Shown piece after piece: positions 6,921 through 31,563 of a DNA stretch of 40,035 bases. This stretch comes from Cyanobacteria bacterium QS_4_48_99 (lineage in GTDB: Bacteria; Cyanobacteriota; Cyanobacteriia; Cyanobacteriales; Rubidibacteraceae): contig PXPT01000181.1 in the NCBI GenBank assembly GCA_003021505.1, positions 5,112-45,146 of the forward strand. The letters are read 5' to 3'. A program made the translations under genes and the position numbers. Numbering within the stretch: the first letter of the stretch is position 1; each line of letters opens with the position of its first letter. The notes under the pieces were generated by a model, which was given only the letters and a program-made list of their open reading frames with translations, searched no databases and was not told the origin of the DNA.

Positions 6921-6966
6921 CCGCTGAAACATCGATACAATTAAGCCTGTTCTATTGTGCAAAGCT

Positions 6967-9384
6967 ATGTCTGCTATTTCCACTGCTCCCTTCTCCATAG
7001 AAGCAATTGCCGCTGAAGGAATCAAACCCCAAGAATACGAAGAGATTGTCAAACGCTTAGAACGCCATCCCAATCAAGCCGAGTTGGGGATGTTTGGGGT
7101 GATGTGGTCAGAACACTGTTGCTATAAAAACTCCCGTCCCCTCCTGAAGCAATTTCCCACCACAGGTGATCGCGTCCTTGTTGGTCCCGGAGAAAATGCC
7201 GGCGTGGTAAACTTAAGCGAAGGAGTGCGAGTAGCCTTTAAAATCGAATCCCACAACCATCCCTCCGCCGTGGAACCCTATCAAGGCGCTGCCACCGGAG
7301 TAGGCGGCATCCTGCGAGACATTTTTACTATGGGGGCACGTCCCATTGCCCTCCTCAACTCCCTGCGCTTTGGTTCTTTAGATGAGGTTCGCACGCGCAG
7401 GCGCTTTAGTGGCGTAATCGAAGGCATTGCTGGTTACGGCAACTCCGTGGGCGTTCCCACCGTGGGTGGCGAAGTCTATTTTAACCCCGCCTACCAGGGC
7501 AATCCCCTTGTCAATGTCATGGCACTGGGGAAAATGGAAACTGAAGAAATTGTCAAGTCTGGAGCATCAGGCACTGGCAACCCCGTGCTATACGTTGGTT
7601 CTACTACAGGTAGAGACGGCATGGGAGGGGCAAGTTTCGCCAGTGCCGAACTCAGCGAGGAATCCGCCGATGACCGTCCGGCAGTACAAGTAGGAGACCC
7701 CTTTCAGGAAAAATCTCTGATTGAAGCTTGCCTAGAGGCATTCCAAACGGGGGCAGTCGTCGCTGCCCAAGACATGGGGGCGGCTGGGCTTACCTGTTCT
7801 ACTTCCGAAATGGCAGCAAAGGGAGGTGTGGGGATTGAACTCGACTTAGACAACATTCCTGTGCGCGAAACGGGCATGACTCCCTATGAATACCTGCTCT
7901 CGGAATCCCAAGAGCGGATGCTATTGGTTGTCCAAAAAGGTCGGGAACGGGAACTGATGGAGATTTTTAAGCGTTGGGAACTCCACGCTGTTGTTGCAGG
8001 AGTGGTGATTTCCGAGCCGACAGTGCGGATTCGCGCTCAAGGAGAGCTAGCCGCAGAAATTCCGGCTGCGGCTTTGTCAGAGAATGCGCCCATCTATCAC
8101 CGAGAACTGCCAGCAGAACCGCCAGCGTATGCCCAAAAAGCATGGGAGTGGCAGGCAGATTCCCTTCCTCAGTGTACGGCATCAGGTATAGAAATTTCAG
8201 GAGAATTCAAAAGCTGGAATGAAATTCTCTTGCAACTCCTCGACACCCCAACGATTGCATCGAAGCGCTGGATTTATCGCCAGTATGACCATCAGGTGCA
8301 AAATAATACGGTGATCCTACCAGGGGGAGCAGACGCGGCAGTGGTGAGGCTCCGTCCGATAGATACTAAGGGGGAGTTACAACGGGGAGTAGCAGCAACC
8401 ACAGATTGTAATGCCCGCTACGTCTACCTCGACCCCTACGAGGGGGCGAAAGCCGCTGTAGCAGAAGCGTCACGCAACCTGAGTTGTGTTGGTGCCCAGC
8501 CACTAGCCATCACGGATAACCTGAATTTTGGTAGCCCGGAAACAACAGTGGGCTACTGGCAGTTAGCATCTGCTTGTCATGGCATTGCTGAAGCCTGCGA
8601 GGAAATGAGAACCCCTGTAACCGGGGGCAATGTCTCCCTTTATAACGAAACACTCGATGCCCAGGGCAAGCCACAACCGACTTATCCCACCCCTGTAATG
8701 GGCATGGTAGGAGAAATTCCTGACGTGAGACAGATTTGCCCTCAAGGTTGGCAAGCAGAGGGGGATTTGATTTATTTGCTGGGATTGACTGGGCAAGGCA
8801 GAGGGGAAAGAGGACAAGGGGACGAAGGGACAATTCAGAATTCAGAATTCACAGTTCAGAATTCGGAATCACTCCTCACTTCACTGGGAGGCTCACAGTA
8901 CCTAGCAACCATTCACAACCTTGTGGCAGGAAAACCACCCAGGGTAGATTTTGAGCTAGAGCGTCGCGTCCAGGCAGCTTGCCGCGAGGGAATTCGTCAA
9001 GGTTGGGTTAACTCGGCTCATGATTGTGCTGAGGGAGGCTTGGCAGTTGCTCTGGCTGAAGCATGTATTAGTGGTGAATTGGGGGCAGAAATTCGCTTAG
9101 AGATGCTCAACAGCCAAGCATCCATGCGGTGGGATGAGATTCTTTTTGGTGAAGCGGCCAGTCGCATCCTGGTTTCAGTGAAGCCTCAGCAGCAGGAAAG
9201 CTGGGAATCCCATCTAAGCGAGCAATTGGGGAGTAATTGGCTCAAAATGGGCTTGGTGAGGAATCAGGATGGGAAGTTACGGATGATGGCAGCAGACGGT
9301 GTTTCCCTGATTGAAGTTAAGATCAAAGAGGCAGGCGATCGCTCGCATCAGGCAATCGAAAAACGTCTAACCGTTCAGTTTTAG
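6967..9384 (+). CDS. purL: Phosphoribosylformylglycinamidine synthase subunit PurL, with one repeat insertion
   Basis: PurL performs the fourth step of purine synthesis, ATP-dependent amidation of FGAR to FGAM, in complex with PurQ and PurS. It is the small, bacterial/archaeal form: [20 protein letters not shown] near residues 41-60, [21 protein letters not shown] near 94-114, and the second half [23 protein letters not shown] and [18 protein letters not shown] chose the ATG at 6967 ([18 protein letters not shown]); four codons upstream a TTG is also in frame. The product is about 805 residues, about 30 longer than usual, because residues about 609-638 are a Gly/Arg-rich and QNSEF-repeat insert encoded by a dispersed repeat. 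It is followed by purF on the same strand after 154 bases. Confidence 0.96.
8797..8890. repeat. Repeat insertion inside purL
   Basis: Purine-rich GAGGGGAAAGAGGACAAGGGG is followed by tandem CAGAATT units (CAGAATTCAGAATTCACAG, then CAGAATTCGGAATC) and a CACTCCTCACTTCAC end. These are the same classes of units as in the intergenic repeats. The insertion lies between GLTGQG and LGGSQYL and keeps the frame. Confidence 0.75.
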
Positions 9385-11308: not shown

Positions 11309-11905
11309 TTAACCTTCCCGAAGCCGTTTGTTGTTTTCGGAGTGGGGGTCACTGGTGTAGTGAAGCTTCAAAAAGCTGTCGAAGGCGTACCAACCTAGGA
11401 CGTACCACGGAATGAATTCCAGTTGCAGCCCTTTGGTGAGCAACTGCCGCACGGCAAGCACACTAAAACCCAGAGGAATCAAAAACCGCAAATCGACCAG
11501 ACTGTTTGTCGCTCGTATTACCCGCCGATTCCAGTCCGTAACCGCACTCGTTACTGCCGTTGCTGTCGATGATTTGCCGTTAGTAGTAACAGACTGTCCT
11601 TCTGTAATCGCAGCGAAAGTTACATTTAAATCCTGCAAGATTACATAGATATCGTCATGACCGCTGTGTTCCTGAGCGTAGTGAACCGTCATGCTGCCAC
11701 TTTCGACATTAGTCCGTACCCGAGAAATTTCGAGGCGTCTTCTCAGCGCACTGGCAATTTGCTCTAACTTCTCAGGTTGACGGTGCGGACGGGCGAAGCG
11801 AAACCGAAGCCGCCCTGGAGTCTGACTCACAACTTGGGCATGGATAGGTAAAGATTCTGTTTCTGCTGCTTGTGGCATAACTCGTGACATGTGGGCGTTT
11901 TCCAT
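11309..11905 (-). CDS. HMA2-like domain protein with C-terminal membrane segment
   Basis: The 198-residue product begins with a domain of about 75 residues, QVVSQTPGRLRFRFARPH to MTVHYAQEHSGHDDIYVIL, with the beta-alpha-beta pattern of heavy-metal-associated (HMA) domains. The metal-binding CxxC is missing and is replaced by TPGRLRFRF. After a linker, residues about 140-190 hold hydrophobic stretches (FLIPLGFSVLAVRQLL, EFIPWYVLGWYAF) that probably anchor it in a membrane. It is the last gene of a minus-strand cluster with the DUF5132 gene, the P-type ATPase and the double-HMA gene. A role as partner or regulatory domain of that ATPase is an inference from the shared HMA-like module. The second in-frame ATG (residue 6) is an alternative start. 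Confidence 0.75.
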   Translation of the reverse strand: MENAHMSRVMPQAAETESLPIHAQVVSQTPGRLRFRFARPHRQPEKLEQIASALRRRLEISRVRTNVESGSMTVHYAQEHSGHDDIYVILQDLNVTFAAITEGQSVTTNGKSSTATAVTSAVTDWNRRVIRATNSLVDLRFLIPLGFSVLAVRQLLTKGLQLEFIPWYVLGWYAFDSFLKLHYTSDPHSENNKRLREG

Positions 11906-12048
11906 AATCTAGCGAGCTGCGTAAAAAGGGACGGGAAATATACCCATCCCTGACTGGCTGAGTTGGGATGGCAGGGGAGGCACCAAACAGAGCTAGCACT
12001 GTTCGGTTCCCTCTCTATCTGCCTTCTGCCTGGAAGCTGCAACCTCAA

Positions 12049-12330
12049 CTAGTCAGCTTTAGTATCGCTCTCACCTGAGCTAATTGCTTGGGAATTTTCT
12101 TCGGCTAGTTCGGCTTTCGCCTCTGCCTTCATATCTTCAAAGCTTTCTTCCGCTTCTGCGAAGAAACCTCTGCTTCTTTCGTAGGCTACGAGTCCACCTT
12201 TAATTGCTCCTTTGGCAAGAGGTTTGCCAACCTTCGTTGCGAGGAAAGGTGCAAACACAGCGGTGCCCACTCCTGCGACAACACCAACCGGTCCCAGGTC
12301 TTCAAAGAAATCTCCTATTTTTAGTGCCAT
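12049..12330 (-). CDS. DUF5132 small membrane protein, probable P-ATPase partner
   Basis: The 93-residue protein has an N-terminal hydrophobic helix rich in glycine and alanine (GPVGVVAGVGTAVFAPFLA), the basic segment KVGKPLAKGAIKGGLVAYER, then a charged amphipathic helix (EAEESFEDMKAEAKAELAEE) and an acidic tail ending ESDTKAD. This fits DUF5132. The plan, a short Gly/Ala membrane helix, KGAIKGG..YE and an EA/KAE helix, resembles mycobacterial PacL (DUF1490) proteins, which stabilise and assemble metal P-ATPases; the resemblance is by eye and is not proof of homology. An AAGGAGG Shine-Dalgarno lies at 12339-12345. It sits 65 bases downstream of the P-ATPase stop. Cysteine and histidine are absent. 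Confidence 0.8.
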   Translation of the reverse strand: MALKIGDFFEDLGPVGVVAGVGTAVFAPFLATKVGKPLAKGAIKGGLVAYERSRGFFAEAEESFEDMKAEAKAELAEENSQAISSGESDTKAD

Positions 12331-12395
12331 AACACACCTCCTTGAATTATACTTTAACCATAGCTTAACTAGACGAAAATCGTAGCTTGCAACCC

Positions 12396-14786
12396 TTAAA
12401 CTGCTGCTTGACCGTTAAGGACAGGGCGCAAACCGTTTGCACCAGCAATCACGCTGCAACCGTTGTTAATTAGGGTTGCCAGCATCGGGTTCAAACCGAA
12501 GGTTGCAGCTAACACTAAGCCAGACAAGTTGGGAATAGCGACAATGCCTGTATTCTGATGGATGATTTGCTTGGCATTGCTGGCGATCGCTACCGCCTCG
12601 ACCAGACTACGCAGGTCATTGTTCATCAGCACAATCCCGGCTGTTTCGCGGGCAATATCGGAGCCATCCCGGAAGGAAACCGAGACATCCGCATAAGCGA
12701 GGGCAGCAGAGTCGTTGAGACCATCCCCAACAAAGGCAACTGTCTTCCCTTCCTGGTGCAGTCGCTGGACAACTTCTGCCTTATGCTCGGGAAAAGCATC
12801 TGCGTGAGTATAGCTGCTGGGGATACCCAGCTCAGTGGCGATCGCTTGTGCCTGCTGCTGCCTGTCACCAGTGAGCAGGTGAATCTCAGTGCCGATCTGG
12901 GTTCGCAGTGCTGCGATCGCTTCCTGGCTTTCTGAGCGCAGGGGATCTTTGTACTGAAGTCCGCCAAGCACTTTCCCCTCGCAGGCAACATAGATGAGGG
13001 AATACTCCTCACTCTGCAGCTCTGGGTATCGCTCATCAAGTGGCTCCAGGCTAATCCCTTCTTGCTGTAGGCAGCGCTTGCTACCCACCAACACTGTTTG
13101 CCCATCAATCTCAGCCCAAACGCCGAGACCGACTTGATACTCCCACTTCTGACGCGGCGCGATCTTTGCACCTTGTTCTTGCGCGTAGCGCACAATTGCC
13201 TCAGCAACTGGGTGAGTAATTCGCTGTTCCGCAGCAGCAGCAATTTCTAGGACGCGCGAGGGGGAAATGGAAGCATCGGCAGTTTTAATGCCCGCGATCG
13301 CAATTTCTCCCTGAGTGAGCGTGCCCGTTTTGTCAAAGACAATTGCATCAGCTTGGGCAAGCTGCTCTAATGCTCGCCCGCTGCGGATGAGAATGCCACG
13401 CCTTGCCGCCTGAGTTAAAGCTGCCAGCGCTGTTGTCGGCACCGAAACTCGAATCCCGGTGGCAAAGTCCAGGGTTAGCACCGAGGCGACGCGAGTAGCA
13501 CTGCGCGTCACAGCAAAGACAGCGCCTCCCAGAAACAGGGTAGGCAAAACAGCTCTATCGGCAATCTTCGCCGCGTAGTTTTCCATGCGGGTATCATGAA
13601 CCGGGGCATTTTGCACTAACTGAATCGTCTGCCCAGCGCGGGTGTCAGCGCCTACCCGTTCAGTTTGGATGTAAAGCTGCCCTTCCTGCACCAAGGTGGA
13701 AGCATAGACTGCCTTCCCCTGGGTTCGCACCACTGGCATGGACTCACCCGTCAGTTTTTGCTCGTTAATCAGCGCTTGACCACGTAGGACACTTCCATCG
13801 ACTGGAATCTGGTCCCCTGGATAAACAACGACCGTATCGCCTGGTTGCACCTCTTCTAGGGAAACTTGTTGCTTTTCGCCGTTGCGCTCCACCCAGACAA
13901 AGCAGGCTAAGGAACCGAGCAAATCCAAACTCTTTTGCTGAGAAGAACGGGCGGTATGGTCTCGAATTGCCTCTCCCAGTTCGATTAGCGCCAGCATGCT
14001 AGAGGAAGTCAGAAAGTGCCCCTGAGCAGTGGAGATCGCCAGAGTGCTCAGATCCAAAAAATCAACGTTCACTCGGCGCTGCCGAAAGAGGCTTTCCCAG
14101 GTTCTTTTTACCACCGGCAAGGCAGCAAGGGCGATCGTTCCCCGAATTATGAGTGAGGGAATGGATAACCCTACAGGACCCCCCAACAGAGATACAAAGG
14201 CAGCAAAGGCTGGGAGTTTTAGCCTTGACCAAGAACTCCCTTCCTCGGAGGTCTGCTTTTGGGTTGAGGTTGCCGTGGCTGGGAGTGACCCCGCACTCTG
14301 ACTCGCTATTAAAATCAGCGTTGCCATCACAGAGCGAATCTCGCTCTCTTTCGCGCTAGCAACATAGCAAATGACGATGCAACCCGCAGCGTAGTTAACT
14401 CGGACACTCGCAATCTTGGTATCCAACTCAACTAACCCCTGCAGTCGCTGGGCATATTCGTGATCGCGAACCATCCGAGGCACGCGAAAGCGCATCCGTC
14501 CCGGAATTGCGTGAACGACGCTATAGGGAATCTTCGGAAAATATAGCGCTTGGTTCCCGATTACTCTGTCCTCTGGGTTTGCGCTGATTAGATTCCGAGG
14601 TTGCCTTGGAACTAAGCCCTCATCGTACCATGACGAAGAAGGACACGGGGTTCGCTTATTCCTCGAACCTGCAAAATGTCCGTCCTGCTGCGTGTGTTGC
14701 TCAGTTTTGGCAACTGGCGCTGAATTCCCATTCCAGTCCCCTTTACTTTTGGAGACCTCGCTGGAGTGGTGAACCAGTTTTGCCAT
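12396..14786 (-). CDS. P1B-like P-type ATPase with HMA2-type N-terminus and no CPC motif
   Basis: This 796-residue protein should use ATP to move a metal ion across a membrane. Visible P-ATPase parts are the actuator loop TGES near residue 345, the phosphorylation site DKTGTLTQGE at about 483, HPVAEAIVRYA, and the hinge GDGLNDSAALAYADV near 686. The N-terminus carries an HMA-like domain (about 82-150) with AIPGRMRFRVPR instead of CxxC. The segment just before phosphorylation, where copper and zinc pumps have CPC, SPC or similar, reads DFATGIRVSVPTTAL near 437-450, so the metal cannot be guessed by motif. A very strong AAGGAGGTGA Shine-Dalgarno lies at 14788-14797, one base before the ATG. It is the second gene of the cluster. 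Metal specificity and direction are unknown. Confidence 0.92.
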   Translation of the reverse strand: MAKLVHHSSEVSKSKGDWNGNSAPVAKTEQHTQQDGHFAGSRNKRTPCPSSSWYDEGLVPRQPRNLISANPEDRVIGNQALYFPKIPYSVVHAIPGRMRFRVPRMVRDHEYAQRLQGLVELDTKIASVRVNYAAGCIVICYVASAKESEIRSVMATLILIASQSAGSLPATATSTQKQTSEEGSSWSRLKLPAFAAFVSLLGGPVGLSIPSLIIRGTIALAALPVVKRTWESLFRQRRVNVDFLDLSTLAISTAQGHFLTSSSMLALIELGEAIRDHTARSSQQKSLDLLGSLACFVWVERNGEKQQVSLEEVQPGDTVVVYPGDQIPVDGSVLRGQALINEQKLTGESMPVVRTQGKAVYASTLVQEGQLYIQTERVGADTRAGQTIQLVQNAPVHDTRMENYAAKIADRAVLPTLFLGGAVFAVTRSATRVASVLTLDFATGIRVSVPTTALAALTQAARRGILIRSGRALEQLAQADAIVFDKTGTLTQGEIAIAGIKTADASISPSRVLEIAAAAEQRITHPVAEAIVRYAQEQGAKIAPRQKWEYQVGLGVWAEIDGQTVLVGSKRCLQQEGISLEPLDERYPELQSEEYSLIYVACEGKVLGGLQYKDPLRSESQEAIAALRTQIGTEIHLLTGDRQQQAQAIATELGIPSSYTHADAFPEHKAEVVQRLHQEGKTVAFVGDGLNDSAALAYADVSVSFRDGSDIARETAGIVLMNNDLRSLVEAVAIASNAKQIIHQNTGIVAIPNLSGLVLAATFGLNPMLATLINNGCSVIAGANGLRPVLNGQAAV

Positions 14787-14787
14787 T

Positions 14788-14797
14788 TCACCTCCTT
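14788..14797 (-). promoter_or_regulatory. Full-length Shine-Dalgarno of the P-type ATPase gene
   Basis: Read on the minus strand the sequence is AAGGAGGTGA, a perfect ten-base match to the 16S rRNA 3' end, one base before the ATG. Most other genes in this window have weak or no such signal, so high translation of the ATPase is likely, and the start is fixed by it. Confidence 0.75.
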
Positions 14798-14827
14798 TGT
14801 TTCCTGTGAAACAGAGTTCTATAATGC

Positions 14828-15967
14828 TTAGGCTTTTTGGGGCGTCGAGTTAGCCATCCAGTTCAGCATCCCCAAAAGTGTGGAAGCCTGAAAGTCCGAC
14901 CAGGATATAAACTGATTAGAGTTCGTAGACTCCCCCGCTTCTCCGCTTTCCTCTGAAGCGGGCTGCTGAGTTAATTCCCCCTGGGATGCCTCAGCCTCAT
15001 TTGTTTCCTCTGGGGCAGGTGGTGAAGGCTCTTCCGTTGGCAGTGAGGAGTGAGGAGGTTCCTGTGCCCAGGGGTGGAGGGGCGGAGGAGATGGGTGGGG
15101 TTGTTTGCTTCCCTCTGCTCCCCTGCTCCTCTGCTTTTTCTTGCCCCTCTGCTCCCTGCTTTTGGAGGTCCTCTGCTTTTTGTGTCCCCGCGTCCCCGCC
15201 TCTTCTTGTCTCCCCTCCTCAGGAATACCAGCCACCTCAATTAATTCACCCAGATGCGATCGCATCTCGGCATCAGAAAACCTTTGAGATTCATAGGTTA
15301 TGACCACCGAGCCAATCGCGCGATTGAGGCGAACGCTGGTAATCCGCTCATCTGCTTTGGCTAACCTCTGAACTCGCTTGGCATAGTCTGCATCCTCGGC
15401 AACTTCCCGAATGTGAAAGCGCATCCGCCCAGGAGTCGCACTAATAACGCTATAGGCTGGTGCTTGGTTCTCAGTTGAGGTATCTTGGGGAGTTTCGCCA
15501 GTCGGTACGCCTGGAAGTCCCAAATCGAACTTCTCCATTACCTGGCGAGTTGTACCTGCGGTAATCATGAAGGCAGGAATTGATGACCAGCCTTGGATTC
15601 CTAGCGATCGCGTCACTGCAATTCCCACAAAGGAGGGGATGAGTGACTGGATTTGGGTGTAGGCTTGCGACCAGAGATCTGAGCGCTCTTCTTGTGCCTC
15701 CTCTTGTCCTTGGGAAACGCCACACTGCTGGAGGACTTCCCATAGTTGCGACCACTTGGTAGTGCTGGGTTCGAAAATGATTAGCACACTGCCGGTTTGC
15801 TCATTCGTGCGAACTTCATGCACGCCCTCTTGCTCACGCAGTCTGGGCGCTACAGCCTCTAAGGCATCGCTACCACGCTGGTCTGTGGCGCGGAGCCGTA
15901 CCCGACCAGCAATAGCAGAGACAATTTCCACACCGCTGGGAAAGCGGGGCAATCCCTCGTTAGCCAT
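14828..15967 (-). CDS. Protein with two cysteine-free HMA-like domains and a repeat-derived low-complexity tail
   Basis: The 379-residue product has a first HMA-like module (about 9-80, SAIAGRVRLRATDQRGSD to GSVLIIFEPS), a hydrophobic middle (SLIPSFVGIAVTRSLG, SSIPAFMITAG; about 107-140) and a second module (about 171-245, SATPGRMRFHIREVAED to GSVVITYESQ). Neither has a CxxC. Residues about 251-311 are a basic then proline-rich stretch that is a translated copy of composite repeat A. The tail ends NQFISWSDFQASTLLGMLNWM. It is the first gene of the cluster, 41 bases before the P-ATPase. The two-domain layout repeats the HMA module of the ATPase and of the last gene, so all three may interact. 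No enzymatic function is evident. Confidence 0.78.
   Translation of the reverse strand: MANEGLPRFPSGVEIVSAIAGRVRLRATDQRGSDALEAVAPRLREQEGVHEVRTNEQTGSVLIIFEPSTTKWSQLWEVLQQCGVSQGQEEAQEERSDLWSQAYTQIQSLIPSFVGIAVTRSLGIQGWSSIPAFMITAGTTRQVMEKFDLGLPGVPTGETPQDTSTENQAPAYSVISATPGRMRFHIREVAEDADYAKRVQRLAKADERITSVRLNRAIGSVVITYESQRFSDAEMRSHLGELIEVAGIPEEGRQEEAGTRGHKKQRTSKSREQRGKKKQRSRGAEGSKQPHPSPPPLHPWAQEPPHSSLPTEEPSPPAPEETNEAEASQGELTQQPASEESGEAGESTNSNQFISWSDFQASTLLGMLNWMANSTPQKA
15036..15215. repeat. Composite repeat A inside the double-HMA gene
   Basis: The order is GTGAGGAGTGAGGAGG, CCTGTGCCCAGGGG, the 16-mer GCGGAGGAGATGGGTG at 15082-15097, several CCTCTGCT pyrimidine units, then GTGTCCCCGCGTCCCCGC. The same order and the identical 16-mer are found in recJ at 585-745, in the same orientation. 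It is translated in frame, and a second minus-strand frame is also open across it (about 14971-15240). Confidence 0.82.
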
Positions 15968-20972: not shown

Positions 20973-21884
20973 TTATCTGTCTGATTGACTTGATTGTGGA
21001 GAGCTAACAGAGCTGCTAAGGCTCTCTGATTGACCTGATAACTGAGAGCTGCCAAAGCCATCCGATTGAGTTGACTGTGGGGAGCTACCGGAGCTGCCAA
21101 AGCCATCCGATTGAGTTGACTGTGGGGAGCTACCGAAGTTGCTAAAGTTCCCGAAATTATTCGATTGACCTGATTGTTGGGAACTACCAGAACTGTCAAA
21201 GCTGCTAGAGTTACCGAAGTTGTCTGATTGACTCGACTGCGGGGAGCTACCGAAACTACTAGAGTTCCCGAAGCTGTCGGATTGACCCGATGGTTGAGAA
21301 CCATCCGAACTACCCAAGCTGCTAGAGTTCCCCAAGCTATCTGAGCTATCAAAGCCGCTAGAGTTTCCCAAGCCATCCAAGCTGCCGAAGCTATCCGATT
21401 GACTCGACTGCTGGGAGCTACCAGAGCTGCCAAAGTTGTCAGAAGTGCTACCAGAGTCACCCAAGCCGCCGAAGTTGTCCGATTGACTTGATTGCTGGGA
21501 GCTACCGGAGCTGCCCAATTCGCCGGAGCTATTTAAGCCACTATAGCTACTCCAACCATCCGATTGACCCGATGGTTGAGAACTATCAGAGTTGCCTGAG
21601 TCGCTGAAGCTATCGAATTTTTGACCAAATTTGCCCAAGCCCCCCGATTGCTGGGAGCTACCAGAACTGTTATAGTTACCTGAGTTGCCAGAACTACCCA
21701 AGCCGCCCCATTGACTCCACTGCTGGGAGCTACTAGCGCTGCCGGACTCGCTTGATTGACTAGTGCTACCGCCTGGCTGTTCCGATTGATCAAATAACTG
21801 GCGACCACCTAGCACAGCTCCCATACCTAGCACTAGCACTGTTGGTATAATAACGGAGAGTCTTTTCTGTTTAATTAAATCCAT
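20973..21884 (-). CDS. Membrane-anchored Ser/Gln/Gly-rich repeat protein
   Basis: The 303-residue protein has a lysine-containing start MDLIKQKRLSVIIPTVLVLG, one hydrophobic segment (about 9-27) that is a signal or membrane anchor, then about 270 residues made almost only of Ser, Gly, Gln, Asp, Asn and Phe. Imperfect units of about 11-20 residues recur, such as SGSSQQSSQSDNFG and SSPQSTQSDGFGSSGSS; single-base shifts have not broken the pattern. There are no cysteines after the anchor and no known catalytic motif. The composition is like that of prion-like or surface adhesive proteins, but this is only a composition argument. An AGGAGA Shine-Dalgarno lies before the ATG. Six-frame shadows of the repeat also stay open, so codon bias should be checked. 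Confidence 0.75.
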   Translation of the reverse strand: MDLIKQKRLSVIIPTVLVLGMGAVLGGRQLFDQSEQPGGSTSQSSESGSASSSQQWSQWGGLGSSGNSGNYNSSGSSQQSGGLGKFGQKFDSFSDSGNSDSSQPSGQSDGWSSYSGLNSSGELGSSGSSQQSSQSDNFGGLGDSGSTSDNFGSSGSSQQSSQSDSFGSLDGLGNSSGFDSSDSLGNSSSLGSSDGSQPSGQSDSFGNSSSFGSSPQSSQSDNFGNSSSFDSSGSSQQSGQSNNFGNFSNFGSSPQSTQSDGFGSSGSSPQSTQSDGFGSSQLSGQSESLSSSVSSPQSSQSDR

Positions 21885-23199: not shown

Positions 23200-23282
23200 A
23201 ATGAGAGCAGGGGAAGCAGGGGAAGAAATCTTTAACCTGCAACCTGCAACCTTTATTCCTCACTCCTCACTTCCCCATTCCC
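23200..23282. repeat. Composite repeat B between clpS and the FAD oxidoreductase
   Basis: GAGCAGGGGAAGCAGGGGAAG leads to AAATCTTTAACCTGCAACCTGC, CTTTATTCCTCACTCCTCAC and TTCCCC. Its reverse complement repeats the order seen in recJ at 1370-1500 (GAGGAAT, AAGGTTGCAGGTT, AAAGxTTTCTTCCCCTGC). It ends at the stop codon of the FAD oxidoreductase. Confidence 0.8.
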
Positions 23283-25322
23283 TCACCTCCACTCCTCCCA
23301 GGAGTAATTAAAAATCGAAGTTTTGGGAAAAGCAGTGGGATTGCCTTGTTCTTTTAATCGCTGTCGCAGTAGTTGTAATTGCGGCTCCTCCCTGGGCAAT
23401 TCATCGACTAACTGATACGGTAGTATTCCCTTTTCTAAGGCAAAATCAGCGGTAGTTCCTGCCGCTGCACCAGATGACCACTCAAACGAATGTACCCGAT
23501 AGGCGGCAGCAGCAATGTGACTGGTGGCAATACTCTTTCCCGCAACCAGCAAATTGTCGATCTCTTGGGGAATCATTGCTCGCAAGGGAATCTGGAAGGG
23601 ATAGGTTTGAGCTGCTCCCTGGCGTTCCCCTTTCTTTTCAACATTCCCTGGCAGCTCCGGGGGGCTAGACTTCATGCAAGGATGGAAGTCGATGGGATAG
23701 TGACCAATTCCGAGTGAATCTGGATAAATCCTGGAGCGAGTACGTCGCTTTACCTGTTGGGGCGATGTCTCTCCTTGAATCACAGAAATTGCCTGGCGTC
23801 CTGCTAAGGCTGTCCATAAGTTGCCATAGGTTTTTTCTGACAGGGTTTGGAGATAGTAGTCACTGCGGTATTCCTGGCGAGAAATATCAATTTCGGAGAT
23901 GGTAAAACCTTCGGGATAACCGTAGGAGGGGCGCCCAATAATCCGCCTTCCTTCTCGGATGTAGGGATATTTAGATAAGCCATGTATTGTTCCCATCGGG
24001 GAATCTAAGCCAGAAAGAAAGCGATGATTGGGATGTGGTTTTTTTGCCTCATCCCCTAGTTGGGAGTCTGTGGTTCCCTCTACCAGCCAATAAAAGAATC
24101 CCTGGGCTTGTTGTTCCCCTTTGCGTAGCGTTTCTGGGCGCAATCCCCCTAACCAACCACCAGGGGCAAGTTGTCCTGTGGCTTGGAGTTGTTCGCGAGT
24201 GAGAACCAAGTTATTGCGAAAGCTTCCGGGACGATAATCATTCCCCCAAGTCCAGTTTTGCATGGAGATATCGCCTGGGATAGGTTCAGTAAAGCTAATG
24301 CCGCGAAATTTTTCCGTTTCACTTTCTTTCGGACTCCAGATGCGACGATACGTGAATACGAGGTCAAAATCTGCCAAGCGCTCTAATTCGTAGCTGTAGT
24401 AAGGTTCATACTGAGGATAGAACGTTGGCATAATGTGGGTTTTGGGATCTTCGGTTCCCTCCATTGCAAAGGTGTAGGTAAAGCCTTGGGTGCAATAAGG
24501 ATCACCTTTAGTGCTGGAGGAAGAAGGGTTCAGGTAGGAACGGGGATCAATACCTAAGCGGTAGGGAACATCTGTGATCGCAATCACTTCTCCGGTTTCA
24601 GTAGCATCAATTACATACCAGTCGGCGGGTTGCTGTTTCTCAGTTGAGGAAGGAACGAAACGAATAATTGTTTTCTCGAAGCGGGGGGAATCTTCGTAGC
24701 GATACCAATCTTTAATGTGGTAAGAGAGGGGATTGGTATGGAGGGGAGGCGCACTAGCTTGGTGTCGAATTGCGGTTACACGCTCGATGATGCGCTCAGA
24801 TTCTTCTGCTTTCGGCTCCTCCGGTTGGGAAGGGGAAGTGGTTTCCACTTCCTTAACCACTGTGGAAGGAAACCATCTCAGTGTGCCGTTACCCCGCTTG
24901 GCAGCATTCTGCAACATATTCAAGAGGATTTGGTGTCCATCGCGGGGCAGAAAACAGGATTCGCTTACCCAGCAATCACCGGGGTTGAGTTCACCATACT
25001 CTTCTTTAATGCGATCGCGCAGTTCCAAATAGCCGCGAGGATAGTAGCGACGCGATCGCTGAGTAGGACGTTCGTCAAAGGCAGAGGTTCCTTGTGCCGA
25101 AATCTGTCCCCCAATCCAATCGGTAATCTCGGTTAGGCAAACAGTTCGCCCTGCAAGTAAGCCTTCGTAGGCAGTCGCAGCACCCGCGAGTCCACCGCCG
25201 GCAACTAAGACTTCGCACTCTACGGTTTTGTCTGGGGTGCGAGGTGATGCAGCAAAAACCGAAGGGGGATTGAGTCCTAGTAAGGTAATAAGAAGGGAGA
25301 GAGGGGCAAGCGATCGCTTCAT
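23283..25322 (-). CDS. Secreted FAD-dependent oxidoreductase
   Basis: The 679-residue protein starts with a signal peptide (MKRSLAPLSLLITLLGLNPP, cut after SVFA-AS) and so should act outside the cytoplasm, probably in the periplasm. The dinucleotide-binding fold follows at once: CEVLVAGGGLAGAATAYEGLL then TEITDWIGGQISAQGTSAFD. Later it has DATETGEVIAITDVPYRLG and the C-terminal NLLVAGKSIATSHIAAAAYR plus EWSSGAAAGTTADFAL, as in FAD-dependent proteins of the PF12831 type. The ATG at 25322 is used here because the next residues fit a signal peptide; another ATG lies two codons earlier. The substrate is not known. An exported small protein gene lies 83 bases upstream on the same strand. Confidence 0.85.
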   Translation of the reverse strand: MKRSLAPLSLLITLLGLNPPSVFAASPRTPDKTVECEVLVAGGGLAGAATAYEGLLAGRTVCLTEITDWIGGQISAQGTSAFDERPTQRSRRYYPRGYLELRDRIKEEYGELNPGDCWVSESCFLPRDGHQILLNMLQNAAKRGNGTLRWFPSTVVKEVETTSPSQPEEPKAEESERIIERVTAIRHQASAPPLHTNPLSYHIKDWYRYEDSPRFEKTIIRFVPSSTEKQQPADWYVIDATETGEVIAITDVPYRLGIDPRSYLNPSSSSTKGDPYCTQGFTYTFAMEGTEDPKTHIMPTFYPQYEPYYSYELERLADFDLVFTYRRIWSPKESETEKFRGISFTEPIPGDISMQNWTWGNDYRPGSFRNNLVLTREQLQATGQLAPGGWLGGLRPETLRKGEQQAQGFFYWLVEGTTDSQLGDEAKKPHPNHRFLSGLDSPMGTIHGLSKYPYIREGRRIIGRPSYGYPEGFTISEIDISRQEYRSDYYLQTLSEKTYGNLWTALAGRQAISVIQGETSPQQVKRRTRSRIYPDSLGIGHYPIDFHPCMKSSPPELPGNVEKKGERQGAAQTYPFQIPLRAMIPQEIDNLLVAGKSIATSHIAAAAYRVHSFEWSSGAAAGTTADFALEKGILPYQLVDELPREEPQLQLLRQRLKEQGNPTAFPKTSIFNYSWEEWR

Positions 25323-31492: not shown

Positions 31493-31526
31493 AATACTAA
31501 GTCTGTTTAAATCCTCATGAATAGGT

Positions 31527-31563
31527 AGACACGGGGAAGCGGCGACGCGGGGACATGGGGAAG
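31527..31563. repeat. Short GACGCGGGGACA-type repeat
   Basis: The sequence GACACGGGGAAGCGGCGACG and the following CGGGGACATGGGGAAG are the complementary kind of unit to the GTCCCCGC end of composite repeat A and to the array at 38866-38925. It lies in the spacer between trmL and the glutathione transferase gene. Confidence 0.6.

Follow-up and report, generated by a model that had tools for sequence, protein, structure and literature searches.

A conserved four-gene cluster around a CPx-less P-type ATPase in a cyanobacterium: a candidate multi-component transporter for a hard divalent cation

Gene organization of the cluster

The window, by which we mean the whole stretch of 40,035 nucleotides analysed here, carries four neighbouring minus-strand genes that encode a protein with two HMA_2 domains (HMA2x), a P-type ATPase, a DUF5132 protein and an HMA_2 protein with a membrane hairpin (HMA_TM), as listed in Table 1. 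These genes are separated by gaps of only 41, 65 and 143 bases, confirming both the ORFs and the close packing described in an earlier note on this DNA. A genome-wide profile search of the same organism revealed no DUF5132 or HMA_2 matches outside these cluster genes. Scanning of the window for Fur boxes gave two matches at three mismatches against 1.3 expected, and the promoter and terminator scans of the window yielded nothing above shuffled sequence.

Table 1. Genes of the cluster, with window positions and Pfam matches
Gene product	Length (aa)	Position	Strand	Pfam match
HMA2x	379	14828..15967	-	HMA_2, 66.2 bits, two stretches
P-type ATPase	796	12396..14786	-	HMA_2, 33.8 bits; E1-E2_ATPase and Hydrolase
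DUF5132 protein	93	12049..12330	-	PF17195, 49.6 bits
HMA_TM	198	11309..11905	-	HMA_2, 46.3 bits

Three of the cluster proteins passed the gathering cut-off of HMA_2 (PF19991; 30 bits) with scores from 33.8 to 66.2 bits, and the loop motifs of their domains read TPGRLRF, IPGRMRF, TPGRMRF and AGRVRL. The HMA-like module with a common motif that had been noted in three of the proteins is thus present, but the domains are to be assigned to HMA_2 and nearly always lack a CxxC site, which was found in only 4 of 211 accessory HMA_2 proteins and 2 of 97 ATPases; the usual loop across the family is PGR[ILV]R. HMA2x is composed of an HMA_2 domain, a hydrophobic stretch, a second HMA_2 domain and a low-complexity tail. 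HMA_TM combines a Cys-less HMA_2 domain with a C-terminal two-helix membrane hairpin bearing the conserved DLRFLxPLG...IPWYxxxWYxFDSF, and its AF2 model displays, in addition to the hairpin, a ferredoxin-like domain with pLDDT values above 90 at residues 21-80. This model matched ATP7B, CopZ and the N-terminal extension of CzcP with Z scores of 7.5-8.6; as unrelated RNA-polymerase subunits scored as high as these HMA-type proteins, the structural matches speak for the fold only. Taken at the level of sequence, the two HMA_2 partner proteins are predicted to adopt the HMA fold without its cysteine site.

The low-complexity tail of HMA2x (window positions 15035-15214) coincides with a dispersed repeat, which recurs as related copies at 581-724 and in pieces around 23205-23298 and 31524-31561; the linker may therefore stem from an in-frame repeat insertion. 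Similarly, a Gly/Glu-rich segment within the PurL ORF (6955-9384), at 8736-8830, has the appearance of an in-frame insertion of repetitive DNA, and an imperfect repeat array with units of roughly 40-120 bases (families D1-D3) occupies positions 20989-21755.

Conservation of the gene set among cyanobacteria

DUF5132 was detected in 45 and HMA_2 in 48 of 291 genomes of the phylum, with 43 genomes common to both, 2 and 5 holding a single family and 241 holding neither (Fisher, 3e-43, closely related genomes being counted as independent). For a closer inspection of gene order, about 9 kb on each side of the survey DUF5132 genes were combined with 78 named loci, and 134 loci were inspected; all locus counts given here are loci and not species, some genomes having been fetched twice, once in the survey and once by name. 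The order HMA2x, ATPase, DUF5132, HMA_TM occurred in 27 of the 134 loci, and another 23 showed it with two HMA genes in place of one. In further loci these components are arranged differently, and DUF5132 genes there often stand in tandem.

Three of the four window proteins share 46-60% identity with the other copies, and HMA2x is 32-35% identical to its relatives in loci L097 and L077. Copies in Nostocaceae have flanking genes in common, for a peptide deformylase (assigned by sequence), a DegP-like protease and DnaA, and among the ORFs flanking the window cluster only a methyltransferase-like and an ABC-transporter ORF belong to groups seen elsewhere. As the flanks are almost all different and gene order and identity are kept, the set persists as a unit in different genomic settings. 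Conservation and co-occurrence across cyanobacterial genomes, which the earlier note had put forward as a test of its four-gene 'platform', were thus found in 43 of the 291 genomes and, as gene order, in at least 50 of the 134 loci, and the idea is strengthened accordingly. We regard the architecture of the set and its linkage as well supported by these sequence comparisons.

Within 6 kb of DUF5132, however, 42 of the 134 loci (∼30%) lacked such an ATPase, although some of them end at contig ends, and DUF5132 is therefore not strictly a pump subunit. Several of these ATPase-less clusters (L138, L150, L174, L175, L176, L086 and L195, some at contig ends) adjoin PstB, MgtE-family, phosphoesterase or polyphosphate kinase genes. 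The existence of ATPase-less clusters of the D-T, H-D-T and D-H-D-T types, and of orphan DUF5132 genes, would fit an explanation in which DUF5132 and the HMA_2 proteins act as membrane adaptors of a general kind and accompany the pump without touching it directly. We consider this unlikely, since three genomes with ATPase-less clusters (G022, G030 and G068) still encode an HMA_2 ATPase of P2A length elsewhere, and since a fusion of DUF5132 with the HMA_TM hairpin adjoins P2A pumps. Such a fusion was seen in five loci, directly before a P2A ATPase with a PEGLP motif and an N-terminal HMA_2 domain, with metK adjoining.

The pump and its relatives

The window pump scored 502.9 bits with TIGR01525 (cut-off 346), has an HMA_2 domain at its N-terminus and retains intact TGES, DKTGT, HP and GDGLND motifs. 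By sequence it is thus a P-type ATPase with a full catalytic set and kinship to the P1B pumps. In helix 4, however, the sequence aligned to the CPC region of CPC pumps is DFATGI, and of 86 P1-like relatives from cyanobacteria nearly all have D-[FL]-x-T-G-[IV] where CPx would stand. Helix 6 divides the family into an HN and an NN class, and the window pump, in which the His of the HN pair is replaced by Asn (NNG), belongs to the latter. With the CPx motif missing, the description of this protein as a metal P-ATPase in the usual sense of a heavy-metal pump, as first proposed, becomes doubtful.

In a maximum-likelihood tree, the window pump grouped with the cyanobacterial DxxTG pumps (support 100/99), to which a Deinococcus plasmid pump was joined next (100/99), followed by plasmid pumps of Azospirillum, Cereibacter and Vibrio (99/97); the five other P1B pumps of its own genome and the DUF1490-linked pumps were placed apart. 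That the protein is a canonical efflux pump of the Zn/Cd/Co/Cu type with incidental neighbours is consistent with its TIGR01525 ('heavy metal translocating') score above cut-off, but is very unlikely given the absence of CPx and of CxxC in the HMA domains, the tree position away from the other P1B pumps of the genome, and neighbours that are conserved far above chance.

The Azospirillum and Cereibacter plasmid operons encode HMA_2 proteins, Gly-rich small proteins and, directly before the pump, a small helical (YtxH-like) protein; they adjoin an iron ABC transporter, or feoA and siderophore receptors. The small proteins encoded at the Vibrio pump locus are of the same kinds, and the Azospirillum operon consists of six genes. 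The fez operon of Rhodopseudomonas palustris (RPA2333-2338) likewise has six genes (PMC12016538), which have been termed metal-transport genes and are downregulated together with iron genes (PMC6879726). The six-gene make-up fits, and by their resemblance the plasmid operons may represent fez operons; their pumps, which stand for the fez side in our tree, are called fez-like on the grounds of that resemblance. NCBIfam returned no FezB or DUF6110 name for these operons. By pump phylogeny the nearest described systems would therefore be fez- or ferrosome-like and not mycobacterial, so that the comparison with mycobacterial metal P-ATPases drawn in the earlier note is too narrow.

The cluster resembles these fez-like systems in the clade of its pump, in its HMA_2 partners and in the small helical membrane protein beside the pump. 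It differs from them in having four genes instead of six, in the lack of the Gly- and Pro-rich small proteins, and in the pump motifs, which are DYSCAL or DYACPV in helix 4 and HN in helix 6 of the fez-like pumps. An HN motif in helix 6 is a feature of the P1B-6 ATPases, the class of FezB (PMC9374683), and is not present in the window pump; HNG occurs in the sister class that is linked to Feo. Among the HN pumps, 15 of 19 had feoA or feoB within 7 kb, as opposed to 3 of 61 NN pumps (Fisher, 4e-10, loci treated as independent), and the three Feo-linked NN loci also hold a second pump of the DFVTGI type. FeoB, present in 103 of the 291 genomes, was not found in that of the window organism, and direct coupling to Feo in this organism is thus ruled out. 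The CPx-less HN pumps adjacent to Feo genes lie in loci L066, L068, L069, L082, L083, L092, L094, L095, L098, L099, L160 and L164, where FeoB is often split and its GTPase half begins with a Cys-rich segment of the MxCHQC type.

It is conceivable on these grounds that the operon serves to form or fill an iron store enclosed by a membrane, a cyanobacterial ferrosome in which the pump, as the counterpart of FezB, would move Fe2+ into vesicles. The HMA_2/YtxH-like/Gly-rich operons of the closest non-cyanobacterial pumps, of which two adjoin genes for iron transport and one comprises six genes, the behaviour of the R. palustris fez operon and the Feo linkage of the sister HN pumps all point in this direction. 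We put the ferrosome forward only tentatively, since the NN class is rarely linked to Feo, the genome lacks FeoB, no Fur-box-like site above chance occurs in the window, the Gly- and Pro-rich small proteins are absent, and equivalence to fez is judged from the likeness of the operons.

The DUF5132 protein and a candidate membrane assembly

Alignment of DUF5132 members revealed a hydrophobic stretch that contains Gly, a conserved turn of Lys and Gly, and an extended Ala/Glu helix bearing D-[ILV]-x-AEA. The window protein accordingly has a Gly/Ala hydrophobic helix, the conserved K-x-x-x-K-x-G, a long Ala/Glu helix and an acidic tail, and its AF2 model, of low confidence (pLDDT 63), places helices at residues 14-30 and 35-85. 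The Pfam DUF1490 profile matched 2 of 32 DUF5132 proteins (best E value, 6e-5) and did not match the window protein. A DUF1490 profile made from actinobacterial plasmid-record sequences, for which a PacL-like sequence served as bait only, ranked DUF5132 proteins top among all ORFs of the loci, and 17 of 158 outscored the best of 9480 shuffles. The profile-profile match between the two families is weak (34% probability, E value 4e-4), and it has to be borne in mind that Ala/Glu-rich helices can mimic homology. The pump-adjacent small proteins of Azospirillum and Deinococcus exceeded 3000 shuffles on the DUF5132 profile, that of Vibrio did not, and neither the DUF5132 protein nor HMA_TM of the window found a match among the plasmids searched. 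Thus, DUF5132 appears to be a remote relative of PacL (DUF1490) and of YtxH-like proteins, not a member of DUF1490.

In the PacL1-CtpC, PacL2 and PacL3 effluxosome of Mycobacterium tuberculosis (PMC9374683; PMC13043812), the pump is likewise accompanied by a small protein with a Gly-bearing membrane helix and an Ala/Glu cytosolic helix, to which DUF5132 shows remote profile similarity. PacL, in contrast, ends in a His/Asp metal motif that is missing from the window protein (tail, ISSGESDTKAD), and only 4 of 158 DUF5132 proteins have at least two His in their last 20 residues. Furthermore, the DUF1490-linked pumps retrieved carry CPC or SPC, which the window pump lacks, and the window adds two HMA_2 proteins. 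DUF1490 has been reported only in Actinobacteria (PMC9374683; PMC13043812). A PacL-like protein devoid of the metal-binding motif, DUF6110, is encoded with P1B6 ATPases of the HN type (PMC9374683) and is in this respect like the window DUF5132, although the two, compared here by description, belong to different Pfam families. The likeness to PacL that had been proposed therefore stands as a remote sequence relation and fails with regard to a DUF1490 match of the window protein and to the metal tail; by analogy, DUF5132 may work like PacL. No paper in the literature searched names DUF5132.

P-type ATPases are as a rule regarded as pumps that act alone, and multi-component examples are few. One of them is KdpFABC, in which a P-type ATPase acts with other subunits; the window cluster contains no Kdp channel or KdpC-like subunit, and its accessory proteins are unrelated. 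We infer with good reason that the four products form an assembly. In the reading that we prefer and hold to be probable, the four genes encode a single transport assembly of the FezB/PacL kind in the inner or thylakoid membrane, with Cys-less HMA partners and a hard divalent cation as its substrate. DUF5132 would lie in the membrane beside the pump, where its Gly/Ala helix may stabilise or cluster the latter and its long Ala/Glu helix may contact the soluble domains, as judged by analogy with PacL1 and CtpC. The HMA_2 domains of the pump and of its partner proteins, which bear Arg (PGRxR), would dock together rather than chelate soft metals, and could gate or recruit the pump. The site, lined by oxygen and amide groups, would carry the cation, most likely Fe2+ or Mn2+ and possibly Mg2+ or Ca2+, out of the cytosol to the periplasm or lumen, or into a storage compartment.

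As to the cation, the kinship of the window pump speaks for iron, and the chemistry of the site predicted for its NN class for a harder ion. All ligands of the predicted site are O or N (D and T of helix 4, N and N of helix 6), pumps with PEGLP (P2A, Ca/Mn-type) are accompanied by DUF5132/HMA_2 parts, and DUF5132 adjoins MgtE and phosphate/polyphosphate genes. A manganese (or magnesium or calcium) exporter or storage loader, to which the NN class would have moved from iron by loss of Cys and His, is thus a serious if minor possibility; site composition, however, does not fix the metal, and the MgtE/PstB neighbourhoods belong for the most part to clusters from other families that have no ATPase. 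The D-x-x-T-G motif and the division into HN and NN sites give testable predictions of metal choice. If iron or manganese is handled, the assembly would bear on the storage or expulsion of photosystem metals in oxygenic phototrophs. The four-gene set connects the mycobacterial PacL effluxosomes with ferrosomes, which were not found joined in the literature searched.

ATPases of the P2A type with PEGLP were observed in loci L100, L101, L102, L109, L137, L085, L170, L197 and L198, several with an N-terminal HMA_2 domain, with DUF5132 or its hairpin fusion as partner and an S-adenosylmethionine synthetase gene adjoining; L197 and L198 are from two proteobacterial MAGs. Catalytically dead P1-like paralogues adjoin the module in Gloeothece and two f25 genomes. 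A wider proposal, which we regard as doubtful, is that of an as yet undescribed cyanobacterial metal-compartment pump. In it, a single adaptor module of DUF5132 and Cys-less HMA_2 proteins would serve both CPx-less P1B-like and P2A pumps, two widely divergent classes, in some cases with dead paralogues in a structural role, and would fill a thylakoid- or vesicle-bound store with iron or another hard cation.

The apparent pseudo-ATPases (L210:9891-11459, L108:14155-16245 and L113:14146-16242) lie beside a live pump and DUF5132, and have kept an HMA_2-like domain and the membrane scaffold but lost TGES, DKTGT and an intact GDGxND. The pump ORF of Calothrix CSU_2_0 (L166:7472-9741) is in two pieces, owing to a frameshift or an assembly error. 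Downstream of the Gloeothece plasmid cluster, L210:12376-12978 encodes a 200-aa Gly-zipper protein with a run of eight His.
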